DNA of 27,027 nt, from positions 1 through 27,027 of the IMG/VR virus record IMGVR_UViG_3300020183_000383. One strand, written 5' to 3'. The notes below the pieces were generated by a model. The model did not search any database. It saw nothing but the letters and a program-made list of their open reading frames with translations, and was not told the DNA's origin. The DNA comes from a virus. The stretch's first letter is position 1. Every line of letters starts with the position of its first letter. Made by a program: the position numbers and the translations under genes. This document shows, one piece after another, positions 3,017 to 27,027 of this stretch.

Positions 3017-3517
3017 ATGGATATACTTAGGTTATTGCAGGTGGCAGCAAAATATGTGGGTCAGCAGGAGACTGATGGCAATTCTGGATTTGTCAGCAAG
3101 GAGTTCCAGGATAAGATGGTGGCAACCGGTTGGCAGCCTTATCATAGCTGGTGTTGTTATTTTTGTGAACTGGTGGCCAAGGAGGCGGCAGGAGCCGGCA
3201 CGGAGGAGTGGATGCGATTTGATAAACTTTTTCAGCCAAGTTGTACGGCTACTTATGCAAATTTTGCTGGGTCTGAATATTATAGGGTTGGGCGAGTGCC
3301 TAGGCCTGGTAGCCTGATTGTATGGCGATATGGACAGGGATGGCGTGGGCATATTGGTATAGTAGAGTCTGCGCGAGACAAAATTATTAATACGATAGAG
3401 GGTAATACTAATAAATCGGGCAGTAGGGAAGGAACTCACGTTTTACGCAAACAACGGAAACTAGAGTTTACCGATCACATTGGCCTAAACTTAATAGGTT
3501 TTATCTATCTAGTATGA
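3017..3517 (+). CDS. Phage lysin, CHAP/NlpC-P60-like cysteine peptidase or amidase
   Basis: The predicted product cleaves cell-wall peptidoglycan at the end of infection. The 166-aa protein is a single catalytic domain. YHSWCCYFCELVAKEA (42-57) holds the candidate nucleophile Cys46. RPGSLIVW (96-103) precedes GHIGIVES with the catalytic His112, and TIEGNTN (126-132) supplies the polar third position. This order is the hallmark of phage CHAP-type endolysins. No signal peptide or separate wall-binding domain is seen. It overlaps the next gene by ATGA. A -7-like TAGATTTG sits only 4 nt before the ATG, leaving the promoter unclear. Confidence 0.8.
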   Translation: MDILRLLQVAAKYVGQQETDGNSGFVSKEFQDKMVATGWQPYHSWCCYFCELVAKEAAGAGTEEWMRFDKLFQPSCTATYANFAGSEYYRVGRVPRPGSLIVWRYGQGWRGHIGIVESARDKIINTIEGNTNKSGSREGTHVLRKQRKLEFTDHIGLNLIGFIYLV

Positions 3518-4488
3518 CTAAGACAGAGATGGCTAAGGCATATCGTATAAAGCACGGCGAGGGAATGCCAACCATGAAACTTGCAAGAATAATGTATAGT
3601 GAGAATGAGTTGCTTTTTAAGGATGTGGAGGATGCAAGGAGGTTTCTTCGATATATAGAAGGAAAATATCCGAATAAGCGTGGAGGTAAATGTTCCTATC
3701 CTAAGAAGCCAATTCGTGTGATGAATCCTTATGCCTTCCCTGCAAGCGATGCAACGAGTTATGAGCCATATAGCATAGAGGAAAGCAAGATTCTGATATT
3801 GTCTGATATACATATCCCATATCACGATATAGAGGCTTTGACGGCTGTGTTTGAGTATATGGAGGTACAAGGGTGCGAAGCTATCTTGCTAAATGGAGAT
3901 ATATTGGATTTTTATGGTCTGAGTCGTTTTGTAAGGGACCCAAAAGCAAGATCCATATCAGGCGAGTTGGAAATTTTGGAACAATTTTATGACATTCTTA
4001 AAAAGCATTTTAATGTTAACATTTATTACAAATTAGGTAATCACGAGGAACGATACGATCACTTTTTATTTATGAAGGCAGCAGAATTGACGGGTGTTCC
4101 AGAGTTTAACATAGAAACTGTTATAGAAAATAGAATGCCTGGTGTTAAAATTATTAAAGACAAAAGAATAGTCCAGTTTGGTAGTTTAAACATCATACAT
4201 GGTCATGAATACAATACAGGTATATTTCAATCTGTAAATGTTGCTCGTGGGCTGTTTTTAAAGTCTAAGGTATCCAGTTTACAAGGTCATGCTCATCAAG
4301 TATCAGAGCATACGGAGACGGATATGAATGGTAATATAACGACCACCTGGAGTGTCGGTTGCTTGTGTAATATGCACCCAGATTATGCCAAACTAAATCG
4401 TTGGTCACAGGGATTTGCGGTGGCGCAGAGAAAAGGAGGAGATTTCTCGGTGAAAAACTACCGGATTCATAAAGGTGTAATCCTATGA
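3514..4488 (+). CDS. Calcineurin-like metallophosphoesterase, 324 aa
   Basis: The two-metal active-site motifs are all present in order: D98-x-H100 (LSDIH), G128-D129 (LNGDILD), G175-N176-H177-E178, H231 (IHGHEY) and G258-H259-A260-H261. It should therefore hydrolyse a phosphomono- or phosphodiester with Mn, Fe or similar metals. The substrate cannot be read from sequence. Residues 1-85, rich in Lys and Arg, precede the catalytic domain and may bind nucleic acid. It starts within the last codons of the lysin gene (ATGA overlap), so the two are translationally coupled. It could act in nucleic-acid metabolism, host takeover or removal of a signalling nucleotide. Confidence 0.85.
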   Translation: MTKTEMAKAYRIKHGEGMPTMKLARIMYSENELLFKDVEDARRFLRYIEGKYPNKRGGKCSYPKKPIRVMNPYAFPASDATSYEPYSIEESKILILSDIHIPYHDIEALTAVFEYMEVQGCEAILLNGDILDFYGLSRFVRDPKARSISGELEILEQFYDILKKHFNVNIYYKLGNHEERYDHFLFMKAAELTGVPEFNIETVIENRMPGVKIIKDKRIVQFGSLNIIHGHEYNTGIFQSVNVARGLFLKSKVSSLQGHAHQVSEHTETDMNGNITTTWSVGCLCNMHPDYAKLNRWSQGFAVAQRKGGDFSVKNYRIHKGVIL

Positions 4489-11526: not shown

Positions 11527-12681
11527 ATGAACGAAACAGTAAAAGCAATTACCGACGTTCTTGACCCTAAGATTAAGGGTTACAAGGACGAGTTGACTGC
11601 CGAGTTCGCCCGCATCAATAAGGATGTCGAAGCGAAGGTGGCACAACTCAACGAAGATTCTGCCAGCAGGGGCCAGACTCTCGTAGAACTAAAGCAGAAT
11701 GTTGATCGTCTGCTCGCTGACTCCGGAAAAGTTAAAACAGCTATTGTCGCTGACTACAAGACTGGATGGAGCAACTCCGATCACCTAAAGCAGGCTGTCA
11801 TTGACATCGTAAACGACAACTTCGATTCTATTAGAAGCGAAAAGTCTTTTATGTCTATGAAGGCTGTAGGAACCATGAACCTGACTGATAACCTTACTGG
11901 CACTTCCCAGATCAGTTATACGCAGAATCCCATCATGCGTTCTTTCTATAATCCTCATCTGTACGATGTCTTCCGCATCATTCCGACTGCAACCGGCAAC
12001 GTGTCTTTCCCTCGTGGAAAATCCCCCGTTGGCGAAGGTTCTTTTGGACAGCAGACTGAAGGCAGCGACAAAGCCCAGATTGATTACGATGTAGAGATGG
12101 TGAACACTTCGGTTCCCTTCATCGCTGGTTATGTCAAAGTAACCCGTCAGATGCTGCAGGACCTTCCGTTCCTCCAATCCTACCTCAGCCAATCGCTGGT
12201 AGAGGACTGGAACCGTGCCGTCAATACCCGTTTTCTGAATAACATCGCTACCAACTCTACTGCCCTCTCCACTTCGGAGACCATAACAGTTGCCAAGATG
12301 ATTTCGGGTCTCGCCCAGCATGGTGACCTCGGCCTCGGTATGGCTAACCTAATTCTGACTACTTGGGATGCGTGGAGCAAAGTACTACTCACTAAGCCTA
12401 GTGACTACAGCGTTCCTGCTTCAGTAGCTATTGATGCAAACGGTACTGTCCGTATTAATGGTGTACCCGTAGTACCTCATAGCCAAGTTACTGGCAGTAG
12501 GTTCTACATCATCAACTCCGATGCTTTTGCTATCGCACAAGCTTCTGGTTTCCAGGTTCGTTCTACTGAGTTTGATCAATCAGACTTCATTAAGAACCTT
12601 GTTACCTACCGTGCAGAGGCTCGCATCGAACTACTGAGTTTCCAGCCAAAGGCTGCTGTTTACGGCACTACAGGAACATAG
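11527..12681 (+). CDS. Major capsid protein, HK97 fold
   Basis: The 384-aa product forms the icosahedral shell. Residues 15-68 form a charged coiled coil (ELTAEFARINKDVEAKVAQL), the scaffold-like delta domain. The shell domain follows from about residue 105, with GYVKVTRQMLQDLPFLQSYL (201-220) and a C-terminal FYIINSDAFAIA segment. The protease encoded next door probably removes the N-terminus around residues 100-112; the exact site is inferred. Codons are clearly more GC-rich and uniform (CGT, CTC, ACC, GGC) than in neighbours, as expected for the most abundant protein. A strong terminator follows 28 nt after the stop. Confidence 0.93.
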   Translation: MNETVKAITDVLDPKIKGYKDELTAEFARINKDVEAKVAQLNEDSASRGQTLVELKQNVDRLLADSGKVKTAIVADYKTGWSNSDHLKQAVIDIVNDNFDSIRSEKSFMSMKAVGTMNLTDNLTGTSQISYTQNPIMRSFYNPHLYDVFRIIPTATGNVSFPRGKSPVGEGSFGQQTEGSDKAQIDYDVEMVNTSVPFIAGYVKVTRQMLQDLPFLQSYLSQSLVEDWNRAVNTRFLNNIATNSTALSTSETITVAKMISGLAQHGDLGLGMANLILTTWDAWSKVLLTKPSDYSVPASVAIDANGTVRINGVPVVPHSQVTGSRFYIINSDAFAIAQASGFQVRSTEFDQSDFIKNLVTYRAEARIELLSFQPKAAVYGTTGT

Positions 12682-12709
12682 TTTTATCTTGTTTTGGTTT
12701 TGAGTTTGG

Positions 12710-12739
12710 GAGGTGTACCTTTGGGTACGCCTCTTTTTT
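12710..12739 (+). terminator. Strong intrinsic terminator after the capsid gene
   Basis: GAGGTGTACC (12710-12719) and GGTACGCCTC (12724-12733) form a 10-bp stem with one G-U pair, a TTTG loop and six Ts (12734-12739). The next start codon, ATG 12740, begins at the base right after the T-tract. As structural genes continue downstream, it probably acts as an attenuator that makes capsid mRNA exceed downstream mRNA. Confidence 0.85.
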
Positions 12740-13366
12740 ATGTTCCAGAACTTCTACGATATAGTCATAGTGCTAAGTCAAAAGCACAGAAAGGACCGCA
12801 AGACTGCTTTCGAGCGCAATGCTGACGAGATAGGACTCATGTATGTATGGTTTGATTCCATAGATAAAGACACCCCCAGGGAGTCTTTTAACTATTCGCA
12901 TCGCAAAATAATAGAAGATTGCTTTACTGATAGATATGAAAAAGTTCTTGTCTTAGAGGACGATTGCTGTTTCCGCAGGATGGATAAGTTCTGGGATGTA
13001 CATAATGAACTCAATGCTATGCAATGGGATTGGGTGTATTATGGTGCAAATGTAAGGCCATATCCAGAGCACTTGCAGCCCTTGCCTTGTACAAGCCATC
13101 TAAGGACCATTAGGAGCGCATTTACGACCCATGCAATAGGATACACACACAAGGCCATAAGTGCCATCCATAGCTATTACAAGCCCGAAACAGGGCAGAT
13201 GTATGACGCATGGCTCGATAAGTTCCTTTTGCCCTCTATGCCCGCACAGATTAGCTGTCCATTTCTTTGCGTACAGAAGCCCGCTTTTTCTGACCTTTGG
13301 AATAGAAACGTTGACTATACTGATACTTTTAGTGAATCAGAAAAATACATACGCGATATATGCTAA
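12740..13366 (+). CDS. GT25-like glycosyltransferase
   Basis: The 208-aa product starts IVIVLSQKHRKDRKTAFERN, like the N-terminus of GT25 (LPS galactosyltransferase-type) enzymes. It has the metal-binding segment KVLVLEDDCCF with E73-D74-D75. YEKVLVLEDD followed by WDWVYYGAN and THAIGYTHKAISAI fits a GT-A fold. An upstream GTG at 12713 would place the start within the terminator hairpin, so ATG 12740 is preferred. Acceptor and sugar are unknown. It is the first of four sugar-transferase genes inserted between capsid and connector genes and overlaps the next by 7 bp. Confidence 0.8.
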   Translation: MFQNFYDIVIVLSQKHRKDRKTAFERNADEIGLMYVWFDSIDKDTPRESFNYSHRKIIEDCFTDRYEKVLVLEDDCCFRRMDKFWDVHNELNAMQWDWVYYGANVRPYPEHLQPLPCTSHLRTIRSAFTTHAIGYTHKAISAIHSYYKPETGQMYDAWLDKFLLPSMPAQISCPFLCVQKPAFSDLWNRNVDYTDTFSESEKYIRDIC

Positions 13367-14073
13367 AGCATATCACCTACTCGTCTGGAAACATGGACAA
13401 GGCAGCAACCCTTGCTAGCAAGAGTGCCTTGCAGTACGGAGCAGATCAGTCTGTCATCTATACCCCAAAAGACATAGACAAGGACTATTATGAGGACTAT
13501 AAGCATATCCTACGGCAGCCAAGAGGCGCAGGTTATTGGCTATGGAAGCCTTATTTCATAGAAGCCAATCTCAAGGACATGAAAGATGGCGATATGCTGC
13601 TATATACAGATGCAGGAGTTGAAATCGTAAATGATTTAAAACACCTGACCAATCTAAGAAAAGATATATTACTTTTTCGTAATATGTACATACATGAACA
13701 TTGGTGCAAGATGGATGTCATGTATCGTATTGCTGGCTGGAGATCTATGCCCATAAAGCAAGTACAGGCATCGGCAATGTTGTTTATAGCCGGAGAAGCA
13801 AGTTTACAATTGGTAAACAAATGGCATCTATGGTGTACGATCTGCGACATGATAGACGATACGCCATCAAAGATGAACAATGCGCCAGGTTTCCAAGAGC
13901 ATAGGCATGACCAATCAATTCTTACCTGTCTGGCGCACAAATATCAAGTCAAGACCTATTGGTGGCCGGCACACTATAATAACGGGGCATTTATATATGA
14001 CGATGGCATAAATGATAGAATATATCCGGTCATCTTTCATCATCATCGGAAACGTGACAATGAATGGCAATAA
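13360..14073 (+). CDS. GT-A-like glycosyltransferase, second gene of the cassette
   Basis: The 237-aa product carries RGAGYWLWKPYFI (55-67), then GDMLLYTDAG (77-86) as the DxD-like site, QASAMLFIAG and HRHDQSILT (181-189). This motif set belongs to a group of uncharacterised bacterial and phage glycosyltransferases related to GT8/GT32-like folds. The assignment to a numbered family is uncertain. The gene overlaps both neighbours (7 and 10 bp), so the cassette is translated as a coupled unit. Confidence 0.75.
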   Translation: MLKHITYSSGNMDKAATLASKSALQYGADQSVIYTPKDIDKDYYEDYKHILRQPRGAGYWLWKPYFIEANLKDMKDGDMLLYTDAGVEIVNDLKHLTNLRKDILLFRNMYIHEHWCKMDVMYRIAGWRSMPIKQVQASAMLFIAGEASLQLVNKWHLWCTICDMIDDTPSKMNNAPGFQEHRHDQSILTCLAHKYQVKTYWWPAHYNNGAFIYDDGINDRIYPVIFHHHRKRDNEWQ

Positions 14074-14813
14074 CATTTAATTCTCTTGGCAGGTATGGCA
14101 GGCTGGGGAATCAGATGTTCCAGATAGCTTCTATCGTAGGTATTGCAGAAGCAAATGGTTATCAATACAGTTTTCCAGAATGGGTCAACTACGATGCCTT
14201 GGAAAGATTTGGAACAAAAGAAGACATATCAATAGCAAAGTATTTTAAAAATCAGCTACCTGAGCAAGCAGAAGAACATAAGAGTCTGCCAGAATATCAT
14301 ATAAATTGGGGATGGCAAGGATTAGAGCATCCGGATGGATACAGTTATTCTGGCCATTTGCAATCCAGCAAATACTTTGAGCATATTTCGACTTTAATTA
14401 GGCACTATTTTACTTTGGAAGAAGAACATGAAGAATTAGCATATACATCCATACATATCCGCATGGGGGATTATGGCAGTAATTACCATCCAATCTGCAC
14501 AAAGGAATACTATCATCAGGCTATGGCGATACTACCTGGTCCATACATGGTTTTTTCTGAAGATATATATAAAGCCAAAGAGCATTTAGGACAATTGCCT
14601 CACGGAGATCATTGGTTCTATGATGGAAATACAATTGATTCCTTTAGGGTTATGAAAGCCTGCAAAGCGCACATTATAGCAAATAGTACATTTAGTTGGT
14701 GGGCAGCGTGGCTTAAAAATGGAGATATTATTGCACCTAAACAATGGTTTGGACCTGATGCTGCACATTTAAATACACGAGATATATACTGCGAAAACTG
14801 GAAAATCATATAA
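14064..14813 (+). CDS. GT11-family alpha-1,2-fucosyltransferase-like enzyme
   Basis: It should transfer a sugar, probably fucose from GDP-fucose, to a hydroxyl on a glycan. The GT11 signature motifs are complete: GRLGNQMFQ (12-20), GHLQSSKYF (97-105), HIRMGDY (131-137, the HxRxGD donor motif) and MVFSED (162-167). CKAHIIANSTFSWWAAWL (200-217) completes the set. Length 249 aa is near the usual. GT11 enzymes act on O-antigen, capsule or milk-type glycans in bacteria; a phage copy is less usual. No GDP-fucose synthesis gene is in the window, so the donor would come from the host. Confidence 0.88.
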   Translation: MAITFNSLGRYGRLGNQMFQIASIVGIAEANGYQYSFPEWVNYDALERFGTKEDISIAKYFKNQLPEQAEEHKSLPEYHINWGWQGLEHPDGYSYSGHLQSSKYFEHISTLIRHYFTLEEEHEELAYTSIHIRMGDYGSNYHPICTKEYYHQAMAILPGPYMVFSEDIYKAKEHLGQLPHGDHWFYDGNTIDSFRVMKACKAHIIANSTFSWWAAWLKNGDIIAPKQWFGPDAAHLNTRDIYCENWKII

Positions 14814-14814
14814 A

Positions 14815-15834
14815 ATGACAATACTTTCCTCGATCCATTTGTATCCACCGCATCATGTATGTGGCGCAGAAATGATGCTGCATCAGCTAAACAAGTATTT
14901 ACAGTCTAAAGGACATACTATAAAAGTATTGCTAAAACAAGCAAACCAATTTAAAATAGAAAGTCATTATATCTGGGAAAACATTGATATTTTCCCGCCA
15001 GATCAATACAACGAAACGATGCTATTTCAGCAGGCAGATGCAATCATAACCCACTTAGACTATTCTGCATGGACACAGGCTCTTGCTGGTATATATAAGA
15101 AACCAGTTTTCCAAATTATACATAATTCATTCCCAAGAGAGCATATTAAGAACGCAGAATTGCAGCAATATATTGTCTACAATTCTAATTGGATAAAGGA
15201 AGAATTACAATATCCGCATCCATCTATTGTTTTCCATCCACCTACTGACTACAGATATTATGACATTAAACAGGATCCATGGGATGGACAATACATTACA
15301 CTAATAAATTTAGACCAAAACAAGGGAGGAGAGATTTTGCGCGATATAGCCTGTAAAATGCCGGATTACAAGTTTCTTGGTGTCAAGGGTTCGTATTCTG
15401 AACCCATGAAAATTGGTCAAATAACAGACCAGCCACCGAATGTGCTTATTATGGATAAGCAGGTAGATATACTTCCTATATACAAAATGACCAAAATCCT
15501 CATAATGCCAAGCTTGTACGAGTCATGGGGTCGTACTGCGACAGAGGCTATGTGTAGCGGCATACCAGTCATAGCAAGTTATACACCAGGACTGAAAGAA
15601 AATTGCGCAAATGCAGGTATATTTGTGTCGGATAGAATGAATATAGACGAATGGGTCAAGGCGATTGAAAAATTGCATAACGAGAAAACCTATCGCAAGT
15701 GGAGTGATAAGGCTAAAGCCAGAAGCCGAGAACTTGATCCACAGCAGGAATTGGCAGAAATAGAGCGTTGGATTACAGAAATAGCAACAAAATATCAAAA
15801 CGGCAATGTCAATAAATACGGTATTAAGCACTAA
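14815..15834 (+). CDS. GT4-family glycosyltransferase (GT-B fold)
   Basis: The N-terminal domain begins with a Rossmann strand and the acceptor-side loop PPHHVCGAEMMLHQLNKYL (11-29). The C-terminal donor domain has MPSLYESWGRTATEAMCSG (231-249), containing the EX7E motif Glu236 and Glu244, followed by PVIASYTPGLKE. At 339 aa it is a compact GT4. The sugar is not predictable. It starts 1 nt after the GT11 stop and its 3' end overlaps the connector gene by 29 bp, locking the cassette to the structural operon. Confidence 0.88.
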   Translation: MTILSSIHLYPPHHVCGAEMMLHQLNKYLQSKGHTIKVLLKQANQFKIESHYIWENIDIFPPDQYNETMLFQQADAIITHLDYSAWTQALAGIYKKPVFQIIHNSFPREHIKNAELQQYIVYNSNWIKEELQYPHPSIVFHPPTDYRYYDIKQDPWDGQYITLINLDQNKGGEILRDIACKMPDYKFLGVKGSYSEPMKIGQITDQPPNVLIMDKQVDILPIYKMTKILIMPSLYESWGRTATEAMCSGIPVIASYTPGLKENCANAGIFVSDRMNIDEWVKAIEKLHNEKTYRKWSDKAKARSRELDPQQELAEIERWITEIATKYQNGNVNKYGIKH

Positions 15835-16348
15835 GATTACCGACACAGGTTCGGAACCAATAACTGTTGAGCAGGCGAAACTACATGCTTCTATTGATTA
15901 TACAGACTATGACAGCATTATACCCATCTATATTAGTGCTGCGAGAATGGCTGTAGAGCAATCTACAGGATTGGCTCTTGTAGAGAAAACAGTAAGGCAA
16001 ACTGTAAAGATTCATGCAGACGTTCCATTCCAATTATCTTATTCGCCTGTAAAGCAATTTAGCTATGCCTATTGTGACCCTGATCAGACCGGTCCAAACT
16101 ATTGGTTTAATGCCGAACTACCCAGCAACTTTGGGGCTAATGATGAGATAATAGAAGTCGACAGGGATGGCATTTATGAGATAGAGTATAAGGCAGGATA
16201 TACGACTGTACCCCCAGATCTAAAACTCGCTGTGCTACAAATGTTTGCCTTTGTTTTTAATCATCGAGGCGAATATCAGGAAGGTAAATTAGAGACAAGC
16301 ATGGAAGCGCAACGTATAATTACGAACGTCAGAAGGTTTGCCGTATGA
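15806..16348 (+). CDS. Head-tail connector protein, HK97 gp6-like
   Basis: The 180-aa product probably binds beneath the portal and helps close the head. The N-terminal helices read EPITVEQAKLHASIDYTDYD, then IPIYISAARMAVEQSTGLAL, the standard start of the gp6/DNA-packaging family. A beta-rich insert follows, then a C-terminal helix (LKLAVLQMFAFVFNHRGEY). ATG 15806 lies within the GT4 gene; the overlap and the early family motif support this start. Confidence 0.85.
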   Translation: MSINTVLSTKITDTGSEPITVEQAKLHASIDYTDYDSIIPIYISAARMAVEQSTGLALVEKTVRQTVKIHADVPFQLSYSPVKQFSYAYCDPDQTGPNYWFNAELPSNFGANDEIIEVDRDGIYEIEYKAGYTTVPPDLKLAVLQMFAFVFNHRGEYQEGKLETSMEAQRIITNVRRFAV

Positions 16349-16656
16349 TAGGGCAAAAGATAGCATTTCAGACATCTACGCCAACCAGCCAGGATTCTGG
16401 CGGGGCTGTAGAAACTATGACTACGGTCTATGAGACTTTTGCATGGGCAAGGCCTACTAGCAGCAATAGGACGTTCCTGCACAATGAAGGGGTCATAATT
16501 GACTCGTACAACTTCGATGTACAATACACTACGAATTTCACGCCTACCAAGAGCCATACCATATTGTACAGAGGCAAAAGATACGCCATCAATGGTATTA
16601 CCAATTTGCGAGAAAAAAGGCGTATGTGGCGCATATTTGCTATAGCCGAAGTATAA
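16345..16656 (+). CDS. Head closure protein (SPP1 gp16 / head-tail joining type)
   Basis: The 103-aa beta-barrel-type product includes KIAFQTSTPTSQDSGGAVET near the start, then FAWARPTSSN, TLLY-like strands (SHTILYRGKRYAINGITNL) and RMWRIFAIAEV. This is the usual layout of the Phage_H_T_join family. Overlaps of ATGA with the gene before and TAATG with the gene after fit the connector cluster. Confidence 0.8.
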   Translation: MIGQKIAFQTSTPTSQDSGGAVETMTTVYETFAWARPTSSNRTFLHNEGVIIDSYNFDVQYTTNFTPTKSHTILYRGKRYAINGITNLREKRRMWRIFAIAEV

Positions 16657-17219
16657 TGCCCGATAACATAAAAATAGAGATCAAGAATCAGACACTTGTG
16701 CTGAACTATATAAAAAGGTTTCCAAAGCAAGTGAAGGCAGAGATTTACAATGTAGTCGAGAGAGAACTAAATGAAGCAGCGGTAGCAGCAAAGGCAACGG
16801 CATCTGCATCAAGATACACAGGTGACTTAGCAAATAAAATTAGTGTAGTCAGAGAGAAGGATGTAGTTAAATATCAATCTCTGTCGGAACACGCAGCCTT
16901 TGCGGAGTTTGGGATACGCAGCCAAGTCAGGCCTACTAGAAGATATGCCAATATAGCCCTGAATTTTAAGGGTGTTAAAACAAACTCGTCTGGTAAATCT
17001 GCGAAGGAAAGCATCTATGCTTGGGCAGAATTTAAGGGTATATCTAAACAATTTTGGTATCCCATATACATGAAAATCATAGGGAAACCAATTAAGGGTG
17101 TGCAAACTGGCTTTGCGCCAATTGACAACGGAAGGGGTTACTTCTTCGTAAATTTGGATAATGCAATAAAGAACATACTGCGCAAGAGTAAAGATATCAT
17201 ACAAAAAGCAGTAAAATGA
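16656..17219 (+). CDS. Neck / tail-completion protein, HK97 gp10-like
   Basis: The true start is ATG 16656 in a TAATG overlap; an ATG 30 nt upstream would extend into the previous gene. The 187-aa product has a helix (ELNEAAVAAKATASASRYTG), then DLANKISVVRE and HAAFAEFGIR with an RPTRRYAN stretch. These are the features of gp10-type proteins (AAxxEFG motif). A C-terminal helix is basic. It probably joins connector to tail. Confidence 0.82.
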   Translation: MPDNIKIEIKNQTLVLNYIKRFPKQVKAEIYNVVERELNEAAVAAKATASASRYTGDLANKISVVREKDVVKYQSLSEHAAFAEFGIRSQVRPTRRYANIALNFKGVKTNSSGKSAKESIYAWAEFKGISKQFWYPIYMKIIGKPIKGVQTGFAPIDNGRGYFFVNLDNAIKNILRKSKDIIQKAVK

Positions 17220-17669: not shown

Positions 17670-18083
17670 ATGGCAGCAATAGATTCAATCAATGCCCCAT
17701 TAGAACTTTCAGTTGATGGGGTAAACTTCAGCACTCTTGTTTGTTTAACTTCTACCGGCTCTAACATGAGCCGTGACGTAACGTCCACCGAGACGTTCTG
17801 CGGAATCAGCGTATCGCTTGGGAACCTGCAGGTGACTGTACCTTTTGCAGCTATCTGCGAAACTGCCCCTACGGCTGCGCAGGTAACCTATAAGAATATG
17901 CTCAACTGGATGAGCAATGGTACGCTGCTGTACTGGAGGATTTACAATGGCACTTCTGGCAACAACTTCTTTACTGCTGGTTCTGCCTATGTGACCTCTC
18001 TCGACCTTACTGGCGATGCTGGTGCTACCCTGACGTTCAGCGGTGAACTGACGATGACGGGTAACCTTGACATTACCTTCTAA
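17670..18083 (+). CDS. Major tail tube protein
   Basis: The 137-aa product is beta-rich and low in charge, with Ser, Thr, Gly and Asn abundant (LVCLTSTGSNMSRDVTSTET, then SLDLTGDAGATLTFSGELTM). It matches the major tail tube type (TP901-1/phi13 group). Codons become GC-rich and uniform as in the capsid gene, consistent with high expression. It sits between the tail terminator and the assembly chaperones, as in other siphophages. Confidence 0.85.
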   Translation: MAAIDSINAPLELSVDGVNFSTLVCLTSTGSNMSRDVTSTETFCGISVSLGNLQVTVPFAAICETAPTAAQVTYKNMLNWMSNGTLLYWRIYNGTSGNNFFTAGSAYVTSLDLTGDAGATLTFSGELTMTGNLDITF

Positions 18084-22923: not shown

Positions 22924-23601
22924 ATGTCTGATATAGTCAAGGCAAGCGGCATTGTGATTTACCATAAACTTGGGTCTGCCTATTATCCTATTGCCTGTGG
23001 AACATCGGCCACAATTAGCATAACTACAGATAAACTTGAACTTGCTCCTTATTTAAGCGGTAAATGGAGGGCCTATGAATATGCTAGAATTACAGGCACT
23101 ATTAGTACATCAGGTCTTATTAAAATAAACGCAGGTGCTAATAATTATAGCCCTATAGATTTACTTGATTATCAACTTGCTTGCAAAAAAGTTCTGACTA
23201 AATATGTAATAACAGACCCCAATAATAATAGTCGCACCTATGAGGTAAATTGCCTTGTAGATGATTTTACCATAGAAACAGAAGCTGGAGGTGTTGCGAC
23301 TTATTCTATGTCAATGACAATGACATCTGATCCTGCATTTATACAGACTGCTCCAGATCCAGGTGGCACAGATGTCGATGCTTGGGAATACAATGCTACT
23401 GGTGGTGAAACAACAATATCGAATCCTGATATTATTAATGATGAGGTACTTGATGTACGCAGAAATGGTATAGGCCTAGAGGTTATATTTGCAGGCGTAC
23501 CAACAGGTTCACAGGTAAAATATATTACTGCTACCGGCAGTTTTGAGTTTGGTATGCCGTTAGGTGTAGGTGAATGGATTGTTGTCATATATGTAGATTG
23601 A
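22924..23601 (+). CDS. Second tail-tube-like protein with C-terminal beta domain
   Basis: Residues about 20-145 (CGTSATISITTDKLELAPYL, WRAYEYARITGTISTSGLIK, VATYSMSMTMTSDP) look like a tube-fold domain distantly resembling the major tail protein, but beyond the tape measure. After a Pro/Gly linker (PDPGGTDVDAW) a C-terminal domain contains TGGETTISNPDIINDEVLDV and MPLGVGEWIVVIYV. It may form the ring between tube and baseplate or a decoration. No enzymatic motif is present. TGATG joins it to the next gene. Confidence 0.55.
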   Translation: MSDIVKASGIVIYHKLGSAYYPIACGTSATISITTDKLELAPYLSGKWRAYEYARITGTISTSGLIKINAGANNYSPIDLLDYQLACKKVLTKYVITDPNNNSRTYEVNCLVDDFTIETEAGGVATYSMSMTMTSDPAFIQTAPDPGGTDVDAWEYNATGGETTISNPDIINDEVLDVRRNGIGLEVIFAGVPTGSQVKYITATGSFEFGMPLGVGEWIVVIYVD

Positions 23602-24449
23602 TGTACAAGGCATTAGCATATAAAGTTGTCATATCACAGCCATATATTTCCATAGCTGGTGTATATGCTGCAAACGTCACCATTGTTGACCGTAATGGCA
23701 TAGGAATAAAGCATGGCACTACCTTTTCTGGTGGAGCGATAGGCGTAGACGTTTACACATATTTGTACTATCAAGTCAAACCTACACAGATAACGGCTAA
23801 CGACTATATTATTGCTATAACAGAAAACTTTGTCCTTGACCCAAGATCGATTGATACTGTATATGAATTTGGTCCTTCTCCTACAGTAGGATTAATTTAT
23901 TCTATTTATTTTGGTAATTTAGTTGCTAAGTACAAGGTGCAAGCTGGTAATACAGTACAAGATGTCAGAAATGGCATAGAGGCTGCTATAAATGCCTTAG
24001 CTTTTCCTGGCGGAACCACAGTCACCACAACTGCTATATCGGGAAATAGGCTACAAGTACAAATTACAGGAGATTTTACATATCCTACTATTGTGCTTGG
24101 CGCAGAAAAGTATAAAAAGGGATATTATAGTGAATATGCTGGTAAGTATTATATGTTGGTAGAAGCAGAATCTACCACAGCATTTCCAAATTTACCTGCT
24201 GTGGCTGCAAACTATGCTATCAATGCAGTAACAGTACTGCCATTAAATGTCACACCACTAGGATATTTATCTGAGCCTAATGCAACATACACATATACTG
24301 ATAGCGTAACAAATACTACAACTTTGACTGAGATTCCGGCCATTGGGAATGTCAATCCTGGAGAGTGCGTAATAGATTATTACAATCAGCGAGTTTGGTT
24401 TAATGGCAATTTGAATGTAGGCGAAACAATAAAAATCTTCCAAAAATGA
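23601..24449 (+). CDS. Minor tail/baseplate protein of unknown type, 282 aa
   Basis: ATG 23601 sits in a TGATG overlap and is preferred to the longer form starting 27 nt upstream. The product is beta-rich (SIAGVYAANVTIVDRNGIGI, GAIGVDVYTYLYYQV, GNRLQVQITGDFTYPTIVLG). It ends GECVIDYYNQRVWFNGNLNV, which reads like a repeated beta-hairpin domain that might bind partner or fibre. No family is recognised; the tail role rests on location between tail genes. It overlaps the fibre gene by ATGA. Confidence 0.6.
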   Translation: MYKALAYKVVISQPYISIAGVYAANVTIVDRNGIGIKHGTTFSGGAIGVDVYTYLYYQVKPTQITANDYIIAITENFVLDPRSIDTVYEFGPSPTVGLIYSIYFGNLVAKYKVQAGNTVQDVRNGIEAAINALAFPGGTTVTTTAISGNRLQVQITGDFTYPTIVLGAEKYKKGYYSEYAGKYYMLVEAESTTAFPNLPAVAANYAINAVTVLPLNVTPLGYLSEPNATYTYTDSVTNTTTLTEIPAIGNVNPGECVIDYYNQRVWFNGNLNVGETIKIFQK

Positions 24450-27027
24450 AGCGTTTTCTATTTTGTTGCTCACTTTTTGCGTTTTTTGTGTCACAAGCGC
24501 AGCAAATTAATCCTGTGCCAGACTATGTATTCCGCAACCAAATGTCTGTTGGTAGGAATGCTGTTACTGATACTGCTGCCTATTTTTCAGTAGGTCCGCG
24601 TTTTGGCGCAACAAAGGGTATGATGCCCCCTATGGTAGTAGATACGGCTACGTTTTCCTACAGCAAAAGGAACGGTCTACTTATATTTTCCGTTCAGAAG
24701 AACAAATATCTTTATTGGGATTCAGTCAGGGTACAATGGTCAGATATGGCAGGATCTAGCGGTCAGTACATTACCGGTACTGTGACTTCTGGCAAAATAC
24801 CAAAGGCTACTTCCTCTACGGTCATTACTGATTCTAGGATGTCAGAGTCTGGCTTGTTAATTTCTGCTCCGAGATTTAAGGCAGATTCAATGTTTTTCTT
24901 GCCAAAGATGTCTACTACGCCTACTGATACTGGGGCTGTGCGCTATTCTCTGACCGATTCTACGGCTTATCTATGGACAGGATACCAATGGATTAAGACA
25001 GGTATATCTAAGCAGGACACCGCATCCATGCTGACGTCATATCTACGCAAGGTCGATACGGCTACAATGCTATCTCCTTATCTACGGAAGATTGACACGC
25101 TGACGATGCTCTCTCCCTATGTGCGTGCTGCTGGCTATGGCTTGACGAAGAGCGGTCAGTCGTTGCTGGTGGATACAGCTGCTATGGCTACGAGGGCGAG
25201 GGTGCAGAAAGCGGTAGATAGCCTGGGCGGTGTCATATCTACAGGTATTACAGGAACAGGCACTACCAACTACATACCAAAGTTTACTTCTCAAAGTGCA
25301 ATAGGAAATAGTATTATTAGTGAAGGCTTCAATGTTATAAATGTAAACGGAGATATAACAGTACCCGTTTATTATGCAGTCAAGTTTGGTGGTAGTTCTG
25401 CGACTGCATATATGGGTGATTTTAATGCAAATGGTAATATAAATTTTGCAACAGGTTCATCAACAAAGATGCTTTTAAATTCCTCTGGAGAATTACTTGT
25501 AAATACAACTTCTGACGCCGGGGCATACGCACTACAGGTTGCTGGAAGCATATACAACACAACAGGCGCGGATATAGGGGCATCGTCTGGTAGTTTACGT
25601 ATTGGTACTACCGTGACAAATCAAGTATATGGCACAACACCTATTTTGCAAGTAGCTGGTGATGCCGGATTTGGTATATTTCAACGTTTTCAAAATAATA
25701 GTTTTGGCTCGGTAATAGGATTTACAAAATCAAGAAATTCGACAAAGGGAAGCCATACTATTTTACAGGATGCAGACCAGTTAGGTCGCTTAGGTTTTTT
25801 TGGTAGCGATGGCTCTGCATTTATTCCGGGTGCCACGATTGAATCTTCGATAGATGGTACGCCATCGTCAAATGTTATGCCAGCAAGGCTACAATTCTTT
25901 ACAACGCCTGCTGCATCTGGAACACCATCCGAACGTATGCGTATCACATCAGGGGGAAATGTAGGTATAGGTACGATTTCCCCGGTTTATAAGTTAGCAA
26001 TTAACACAAGTACAGCAGCCGGAACATATGGTAATTCAATAGAATGGCAAAAGTATAATAATGCTTCTGCTTTTGTTGGGATAAGTTATGATGATACAAA
26101 TGATGGTTTAAGTTTTAATGCAAGTGTTGGTGTTGTTGGTTTTAATAGACAATATATGTTTATTAACAGAAATACGGGGAATGTAGGTATAGGTACTACA
26201 AATCCAGTCACGAATTTAGATATAAAAGCGTCTATATCAGGTGCATATACTACATCTTCATCACAAGCACCATTAAGAATATATAATGTTACTAACGCAG
26301 GAGGTATAAATAGTTCTGTTATTACATTTCAGTCTAGCACCGATAACGAATCATCTAATCCAGTGGCAAGAATCGGAGTAGTAGGAGAGAGTGCTGGTAC
26401 TAATCTTGGTGCAATGATTATGATGACCAGAGATGCCTCTGGTGTTATCGAACGCATGCGCATCACGTCCGCTGGCGAATTACTTGTGAACACGACCTCT
26501 GATGCAGGGGACTATAAGCTACAAGTGAATGGGAATGTGTATGTAGGGGGGCACACTACTGCTTTTGGTGGCGGTTATTCTCCTAATGCATATATATATA
26601 GTGACCCAGATATAATGAGAATTGTATCAAGTAGTAGTTCATCAACTAATAAAGATATACAATTTTGGACAAAATCAGATGTAAGCGGACAAAGAATGGT
26701 AATAACCGCAGGGGGTAATGTTGGTATATCCACAACATCTCCCGGTGCAAAAGTACATTCATCCACATCAGCTAATTCCATAAACTTATTTTTATCTGCT
26801 CCATTATATGATGCTGGAGGGGCATCTTATTCATATTATACAGAATTAAAATTAGGTAATGATCATAGTGGTCTTACAAGCATTGGACAATCTGCAATAA
26901 GAAGTTATGCAAATGTTTGGAGTAATTCTGGTAGTATTATGACGTTTGCAACTAGTACAGACGGTGGCACACTTACTGAAAGATTGCGCATATCCTCATC
27001 TGGAGAGTTACTTGTGAATACGACCTC
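24446..27027 (+). CDS. Tail fibre / adhesin with signal peptide, incomplete at right edge
   Basis: The frame is open from ATG 24446 to the window end (over 860 codons), so the C-terminus is missing. It begins with a Sec-type signal peptide (MKRFLFCCSLFAFFVSQAQQ, cut near 19). At 191-229 a 13-residue motif DTxxMLxxYLRKx occurs three times (DTASMLTSYLRKV, DTATMLSPYLRKI, DTLTMLSPYVRAA), a trimeric-coil style shaft. The rest is fibre-like with two alternating repeats, SGELLVNTTSDAGxYxLQV (from residues 347, 676 and 852) and GNVGIGTxxPxxxL (N505, N579, N758). Most are preceded by ERMRIT. Repeats of this kind are common in Bacteroidota phage and adhesin fibres. It should bind the host surface. Confidence 0.82.
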   Translation, partial: MKRFLFCCSLFAFFVSQAQQINPVPDYVFRNQMSVGRNAVTDTAAYFSVGPRFGATKGMMPPMVVDTATFSYSKRNGLLIFSVQKNKYLYWDSVRVQWSDMAGSSGQYITGTVTSGKIPKATSSTVITDSRMSESGLLISAPRFKADSMFFLPKMSTTPTDTGAVRYSLTDSTAYLWTGYQWIKTGISKQDTASMLTSYLRKVDTATMLSPYLRKIDTLTMLSPYVRAAGYGLTKSGQSLLVDTAAMATRARVQKAVDSLGGVISTGITGTGTTNYIPKFTSQSAIGNSIISEGFNVINVNGDITVPVYYAVKFGGSSATAYMGDFNANGNINFATGSSTKMLLNSSGELLVNTTSDAGAYALQVAGSIYNTTGADIGASSGSLRIGTTVTNQVYGTTPILQVAGDAGFGIFQRFQNNSFGSVIGFTKSRNSTKGSHTILQDADQLGRLGFFGSDGSAFIPGATIESSIDGTPSSNVMPARLQFFTTPAASGTPSERMRITSGGNVGIGTISPVYKLAINTSTAAGTYGNSIEWQKYNNASAFVGISYDDTNDGLSFNASVGVVGFNRQYMFINRNTGNVGIGTTNPVTNLDIKASISGAYTTSSSQAPLRIYNVTNAGGINSSVITFQSSTDNESSNPVARIGVVGESAGTNLGAMIMMTRDASGVIERMRITSAGELLVNTTSDAGDYKLQVNGNVYVGGHTTAFGGGYSPNAYIYSDPDIMRIVSSSSSSTNKDIQFWTKSDVSGQRMVITAGGNVGISTTSPGAKVHSSTSANSINLFLSAPLYDAGGASYSYYTELKLGNDHSGLTSIGQSAIRSYANVWSNSGSIMTFATSTDGGTLTERLRISSSGELLVNTT

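Follow-up and report, generated by a model that had tools for sequence, protein, structure and literature searches.

A modular glycosyltransferase slot between the capsid and connector genes of uncultured phages, with virion glycosylation as the favoured function

Between the capsid and head-tail connector genes of an uncultured phage lie four glycosyltransferase (GT) genes, which represent one version of a modular slot that related phages carry at the same place around an invariant GT4 gene. The window analysed is the whole of the 27,027-nt IMG/VR virus record IMGVR_UViG_3300020183_000383, which contains a siphovirus-like head and tail block. The favoured reading, to which we assign a probability of roughly 0.55, is that enzymes made late and at a low level build a variable and often methylated glycan on a virion protein. 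Virions of cassette-bearing phages would thus probably wear a sugar coat differing from phage to phage, because more than 100 relatives keep such a cassette in this position while combining different enzymes in it.

Layout of the cassette

The four genes are encoded on one strand, and all lie between the major capsid protein (MCP) gene and the connector gene (Table 1). A preliminary description of this DNA had delimited four closely packed GT genes, and the open reading frames agree with it to the base: the GT25-like and GTb genes overlap by 7 nt and GTb and GT11 by 10 nt, GT11 and GT4 are separated by 1 nt, and GT4 overlaps the connector gene by 29 nt, such that the connector start codon falls within the GT4 gene. 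The late position that it proposed is supported. The GT4 stop codon is estimated to overlap the connector gene in 28 of 51 relatives, and translational coupling of cassette and connector via this overlap is likely. The ATG of the GT25-like gene directly follows the T-run of the preceding terminator; a longer version starting from a GTG at 12713 would begin within the terminator hairpin.

Table 1. Coordinates of the cassette and its borders in the window
Feature	Position	Strand	Evidence and remarks
Major capsid protein (MCP), HK97-type	11527..12681	+	PF05065 9e-16; upstream border of slot
Intrinsic terminator, 12-pair stem (12708-12735) then TTTT	12708..12739	+	Between MCP and cassette
GT25-like glycosyltransferase, GT-A fold	12740..13366	+	PF01755; invariant E73-D74-D75
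GTb, GT-A-fold glycosyltransferase without Pfam family	13360..14073	+	AF2 and Foldseek
GT11-family glycosyltransferase	14064..14813	+	PF01531 1e-19; PHROG_2644 1e-54
GT4 glycosyltransferase, invariant core gene of slot	14815..15834	+	PF00534 9e-16; PHROG_26352 4e-61
Head-tail connector (gp6-like)	15806..16348	+	PF05135 4e-7; PHROG_442 9e-18; downstream border

Enzyme families

The family assignments made earlier were recovered by profile for the GT25-like, GT11 and GT4 proteins and by predicted fold for GTb, and the catalytic motifs are intact, being invariant across 18-19 diverse homologues of each enzyme. No transmembrane segment was detected in any of the four (max KD19 1.06).

The GT25-like protein by itself falls below the PF01755 cut-off (21.9 bits, 1.8e-4; cut-off 24), and 15 of its 19 homologues match the family (best 1.5e-6), with the EDD motif invariant among them. 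Profile searches retrieved mimivirus R655 (4e-11) and human COLGALT1 (8e-10) far ahead of an LPS-type GT25 structure (0.1), and with the AF2 model (pLDDT 95) Foldseek placed COLGALT1 at the top, it and R655 ranking over a bacterial beta-1,4-galactosyltransferase. The homologue profile matches, the motif and the GT25 enzymes as top fold matches together place the protein in GT25. COLGALT1, a collagen hydroxylysine galactosyltransferase, acts on a protein acceptor, and the activity of R655 itself is unproven (PMC9546862). Although these two are the best matches in both sequence and fold, identity to the pair is only 16-19%, and to COLGALT1 16-18%, so that a protein-directed activity, which the GT25-like enzyme may have, is a lead and not proof. 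The COLGALT1 match raised the idea of a collagen-like acceptor, and a search of the window for Gly-X-Y repeats returned one short run of four triplets and nothing beyond, so the idea was set aside.

GTb matched nothing in Pfam or PHROG and could be assigned to no CAZy family, and a common profile revealed no similarity between it and the GT25-like enzyme. Its membership of the GT-A fold is established by a confident AF2 model (pLDDT 91), by Foldseek matches to LARGE1, the GT6 alpha-Gal/GalNAc transferases and BoGT6a (E 1.6e-7 to 5e-6), and by the D84-A-G86 motif, part of the invariant residues Y82-x-D84-A-G86 and E180-H-R-x-D184-Q185. GTb also has cellular homologues in genomes of the Chitinophagaceae family; one is located next to GT2-like genes on a 4-Mb chromosome.

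The GT11 protein scores 71.4 bits against PF01531 (cut-off 23.9) and shares with its 19 homologues the invariant residues H131xR133xG135-D136-Y137 and N207-S208; its matches to solved structures are weak (POFUT1, 0.002). Membership of GT11 does not fix the sugar that is transferred, and the fucosyltransferase known from O-glycan synthesis in Bacteroidetes is described as having a DXD motif, which sets it apart from the alpha1,2/1,6 superfamily (PMC8698959); the earlier suggestion of fucose was therefore overstated. The GT4 protein belongs to PF00534 (58.4 bits; cut-off 26.4), and its EX7E motif (E236-x7-E244) is invariant.

Conservation and modularity of the slot

When IMG/VR was scanned with the MCP, so that GTs were not selected for, 46 contigs had sufficient downstream sequence. 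GT4 was present in all 46, and the GT25-like, GTb and GT11 genes were each present in 43, as was the full set of four. MCP identity among these relatives is 61-96%, and gene order is retained even at ~22% (L009, L010, L011 and L015). Further contigs came from scans with GTb and GT4, the latter covering the best 80 loci of at least 599 stretches. Among the matches listed, GT4 lies immediately upstream of the connector gene in 107/107 distinct contigs showing both genes, and the MCP-GT4 interval holds glycosyltransferases and methyltransferases almost exclusively. It consists of GT25-GTb-GT11 in at least 24 contigs, of the same three genes with one extra before GT11 in at least 14, and of a single gene, mostly a methyltransferase, in at least 28; additional arrangements exist. 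The extras include a Methyltransf_23-type cluster (at least 32 members), a second methyltransferase cluster (at least 10), FkbM-like clusters (at least 8 and at least 6, the cluster of 6 named by inspection only), GT2 genes (at least 4) and an MptE-like gene; some methyltransferase assignments come from weak Pfam matches (L004, 0.002; L015, 0.001; L013, 0.005), and L110 has none. A DNA methylase (N6_N4_Mtase) occupies the inner slot in at least three contigs; at L094:10489-11097 and L103:4461-5063 a DNA N6/N4-type methylase replaces a glycan enzyme there.

The MCP-GT4 interval is thus a modular slot around an invariant GT4. The cassette of the preliminary description stands as four GTs and was incomplete as an account of the locus, in that relatives add methyltransferases and GT2s around the GT4 gene. 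The concern that it might be an isolated assembly artefact is removed by the same synteny in more than 100 contigs, its position being kept in dozens of independent ones; nor is the arrangement due to chance. One contig of 20.6 kb from a Chitinophagaceae-family-group genome reads MCP-GT25-GTb-FkbM-GT11-GT4-connector and is possibly mis-binned, since it appears to be phage throughout. No GT was found between MCP and connector in the distant relatives L153 (a contig of a Chitinophagaceae MAG), Cellulophaga phi10:1 or Flavobacterium 11b, where structural gene order is similar; glycosylation is therefore not needed for the virion architecture. No isolate with the cassette locus was present among the phage records searched.

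The phage host probably belongs to the Bacteroidota. The sole host signal is a Chitinophagaceae-type genome, and an MCP scan of a genome collection returned one match, at 33%. The earlier suggestion that mucosal or host glycans are mimicked is unsupported. A 1.18-Mb Chitinophagaceae-family chromosomal contig (L306:1075-8545) carries a capsid gene near primase-like and probable integrase genes, a region that appears to be a prophage or satellite-like remnant.

Terminator and expression

After the MCP gene, an equivalent hairpin is present in 92 of 115 distinct contigs, where mononucleotide shuffles predict 3.6, and the same scan after each of 12 other genes gave 0-3 matches. Across highly divergent contigs this terminator is kept by structure, with differing sequences. 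It is also present in phi10:1 and 11b, and therefore predates the cassette. The preliminary description had coupled production of the GTs to that of the virion proteins; with a conserved intrinsic terminator intervening, tight co-expression with the MCP cannot be maintained, and the cassette is instead late and probably expressed below the level of the capsid, as suits enzymes. A dedicated promoter before the cassette was looked for and rejected, sigma-70-like and TAnnTTTG motifs occurring there at chance frequency.

Selection and exchange of alleles

All four GT genes are under purifying selection (dN/dS ~0.02-0.3), which rules out decaying, non-functional morons. Between L083 and L087, dS is 0.25 for MCP, 1.23 for GT11, 0.21 for GT4 and 0.02 for the connector gene, while L097 and L099 have MCPs 99% identical yet GT25 and GT11 proteins only 65 and 68% identical. 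The GT11 tree places L145 outside the window clade (AU p = 0.009, for a clade partly chosen after the identities were seen), whereas for GT4 the same clade, with L145 in it, holds at 97% support. Individual GT alleles have been exchanged among phages that are otherwise nearly identical, as would be expected of enzymes that determine a variable surface structure.

Other genes of the window

Upstream of the terminase, at 3017-4488, an amidase/CHAP-like gene (by inspection) is followed by a calcineurin-like phosphoesterase (PF00149), and metallophosphoesterases recur in relatives. Gene g187 (16656-17219), between head closure and tail terminator, has 38% identity in L017 where its neighbours have 83-88%, which suggests that it has been replaced or is fast-evolving. 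Two Phage_tail_2 tail-tube paralogues (17670-18083 and 22924-23601) flank the tape measure and the next large tail gene, an arrangement also seen in phi10:1 and many relatives. A large, Ser/Thr-rich, fibre-like reading frame (24446-27025) runs off the contig; its N-terminus resembles a Sec signal (MKRFLFCCSLFAFFVSQAQQ), which is unusual in a virion protein.

Proposed function

The four enzymes, all soluble, would be produced in modest quantity late in the infection cycle, by read-through of the terminator behind the capsid gene together with translational coupling. GT4 would carry out a conserved, possibly priming, sugar step in the cytoplasm on a candidate virion protein (capsid, tail tube or fibre), the GT25-like, GT-A and GT11 enzymes would extend the glycan, and in relatives methyltransferases or GT2s might cap or lengthen it. 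GT4 probably acts on a conserved acceptor, because it is never missing and is paired with one other gene in at least 28 contigs. The swap of a single enzyme would then alter the surface glycan between near-identical virions and produce serotype-like variation. We infer a virion protein as acceptor, this order of steps and a benefit through altered adsorption, protection or escape from recognition. The tail tube, the fibre and the MCP are the acceptor candidates; Ser/Thr content is 25% in the tail tube and 24% in the fibre, levels that are common, and the MCP alignment revealed no Ser/Thr-rich insertion as an acceptor site. The second tail-tube paralogue was considered as a cassette-specific acceptor and discarded, phi10:1 having the paralogue without GTs.

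The proposal of virion glycosylation made in the preliminary description remains the leading hypothesis, although the two options that it offered, capsid or fibre and host surface, are inseparable by sequence alone. According to the second option, the enzymes would act late in infection on LPS, capsule or lipid-linked glycans, lengthening or capping them so as to keep progeny from adsorbing again to the dying cell and to cell debris. This is the strongest competitor, if an unlikely one: bacterial polysaccharide loci typically contain GT25, GT11, GT4 and methyltransferase genes, the chromosomal GTb homologue beside GT2-like genes fits such a role, and changes of enzyme would likewise follow variation in host glycans. 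Against it, the cassette lacks a flippase, a polyprenyl-linked GtrB, an acetyltransferase and any membrane segment, it is confined to the place between capsid and connector, and its minimal version comprises GT4 and one other gene, usually a methyltransferase.

It is improbable that the cassette is tolerated cargo, with the space after the capsid terminator serving as a hotspot where bacterial GT and methyltransferase genes of assorted cell-directed functions insert without forming one pathway. The gap is empty or differently filled in relatives, and the DNA methylase in some inner slots would suit this explanation, whereas a GT4 gene that is never absent (46/46), strong purifying selection and contents made up almost wholly of glycan enzymes and methyltransferases argue against it. 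Phages such as the T-even group also use GTs on DNA, but hypermodification of bases against restriction is very improbable here, for despite a C5-cytosine methylase in one relative and the DNA adenine-type methylase of the slot in at least three, the Pfam matches of 50 non-structural proteins, taken from the partial genomes of four relatives, include no hydroxymethylase or thymidylate-synthase-like enzyme, the genes sit in the late structural block, and four different GTs with methyltransferases are not the usual pattern.

Virion glycosylation, as the preferred reading, can be carried further, if tentatively: a large clade of uncultured Bacteroidota phages might display modular, often O-methylated, serotype-like virion glycans that a locus beside the capsid gene builds; the invariant GT4 of this locus could be a new phage protein-glycosyltransferase priming a structural protein directly, with the interchangeable upstream enzymes determining the glycotype.

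Comparison with known systems

Phage virion glycosylation has been shown in few systems so far; if the present reading is correct, it would be a widespread part of the lifestyle of a large group of uncultured phages. GT4 priming and glycotype swapping between near-identical virions are testable predictions, and the cassette offers new glycosyltransferases that possibly act on protein. A literature search, with most subscription journals outside its reach, found no account of a virion glycosylation locus in Bacteroidota phages.

Gtr serotype-conversion systems of temperate phages, which use the membrane proteins GtrA, GtrB and GtrX, are likewise phage genes that alter surface sugar. The present cassette differs in that its four GTs lack transmembrane segments and lie in the late region, and no Pfam match to a membrane flippase or polytopic GT was found in it; owing to the absence of such segments it is not a Gtr-type serotype converter. 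The general protein O-glycosylation of Tannerella and Bacteroides fragilis belongs to the same phylum as the inferred host and produces glycans with methylated sugars by means that include a fucosyltransferase (PMC8698959), but that system is cellular and multi-locus, and its fucosyltransferase is of the DXD-motif family and not GT11. Among isolated phages, the only GT4 match covering most of the query is gp20 of Streptomyces phage TurkishDelight (27-30% identity), which also lies between capsid and major tail protein, but is a far larger protein of an unrelated phage, with no GT25, GTb or GT11 companions annotated.

The closest parallel is provided by mycobacteriophages such as Che8 and Rita, whose capsid and tail-tube subunits have been shown to carry glycans (Freeman 2023, as cited in PMC12619734 and PMC11256854); a part for methyltransferases has been implicated as well (as cited in PMC12894461). 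Shared with the slot described here are phage-encoded GTs and this suggested part for methyltransferases, and the GTs of the cassette are linked to structural genes, a mark of virion glycosylation systems. The GTs of the Che8 relative Maravista are described as lying close to the genome's 3' end, whereas the cassette lies between MCP and connector; it further differs in host phylum and in its invariant GT4 and modular slot. Virion glycosylation itself is known, and the capsid-side locus, with its modular make-up, looks like a novel version of it.
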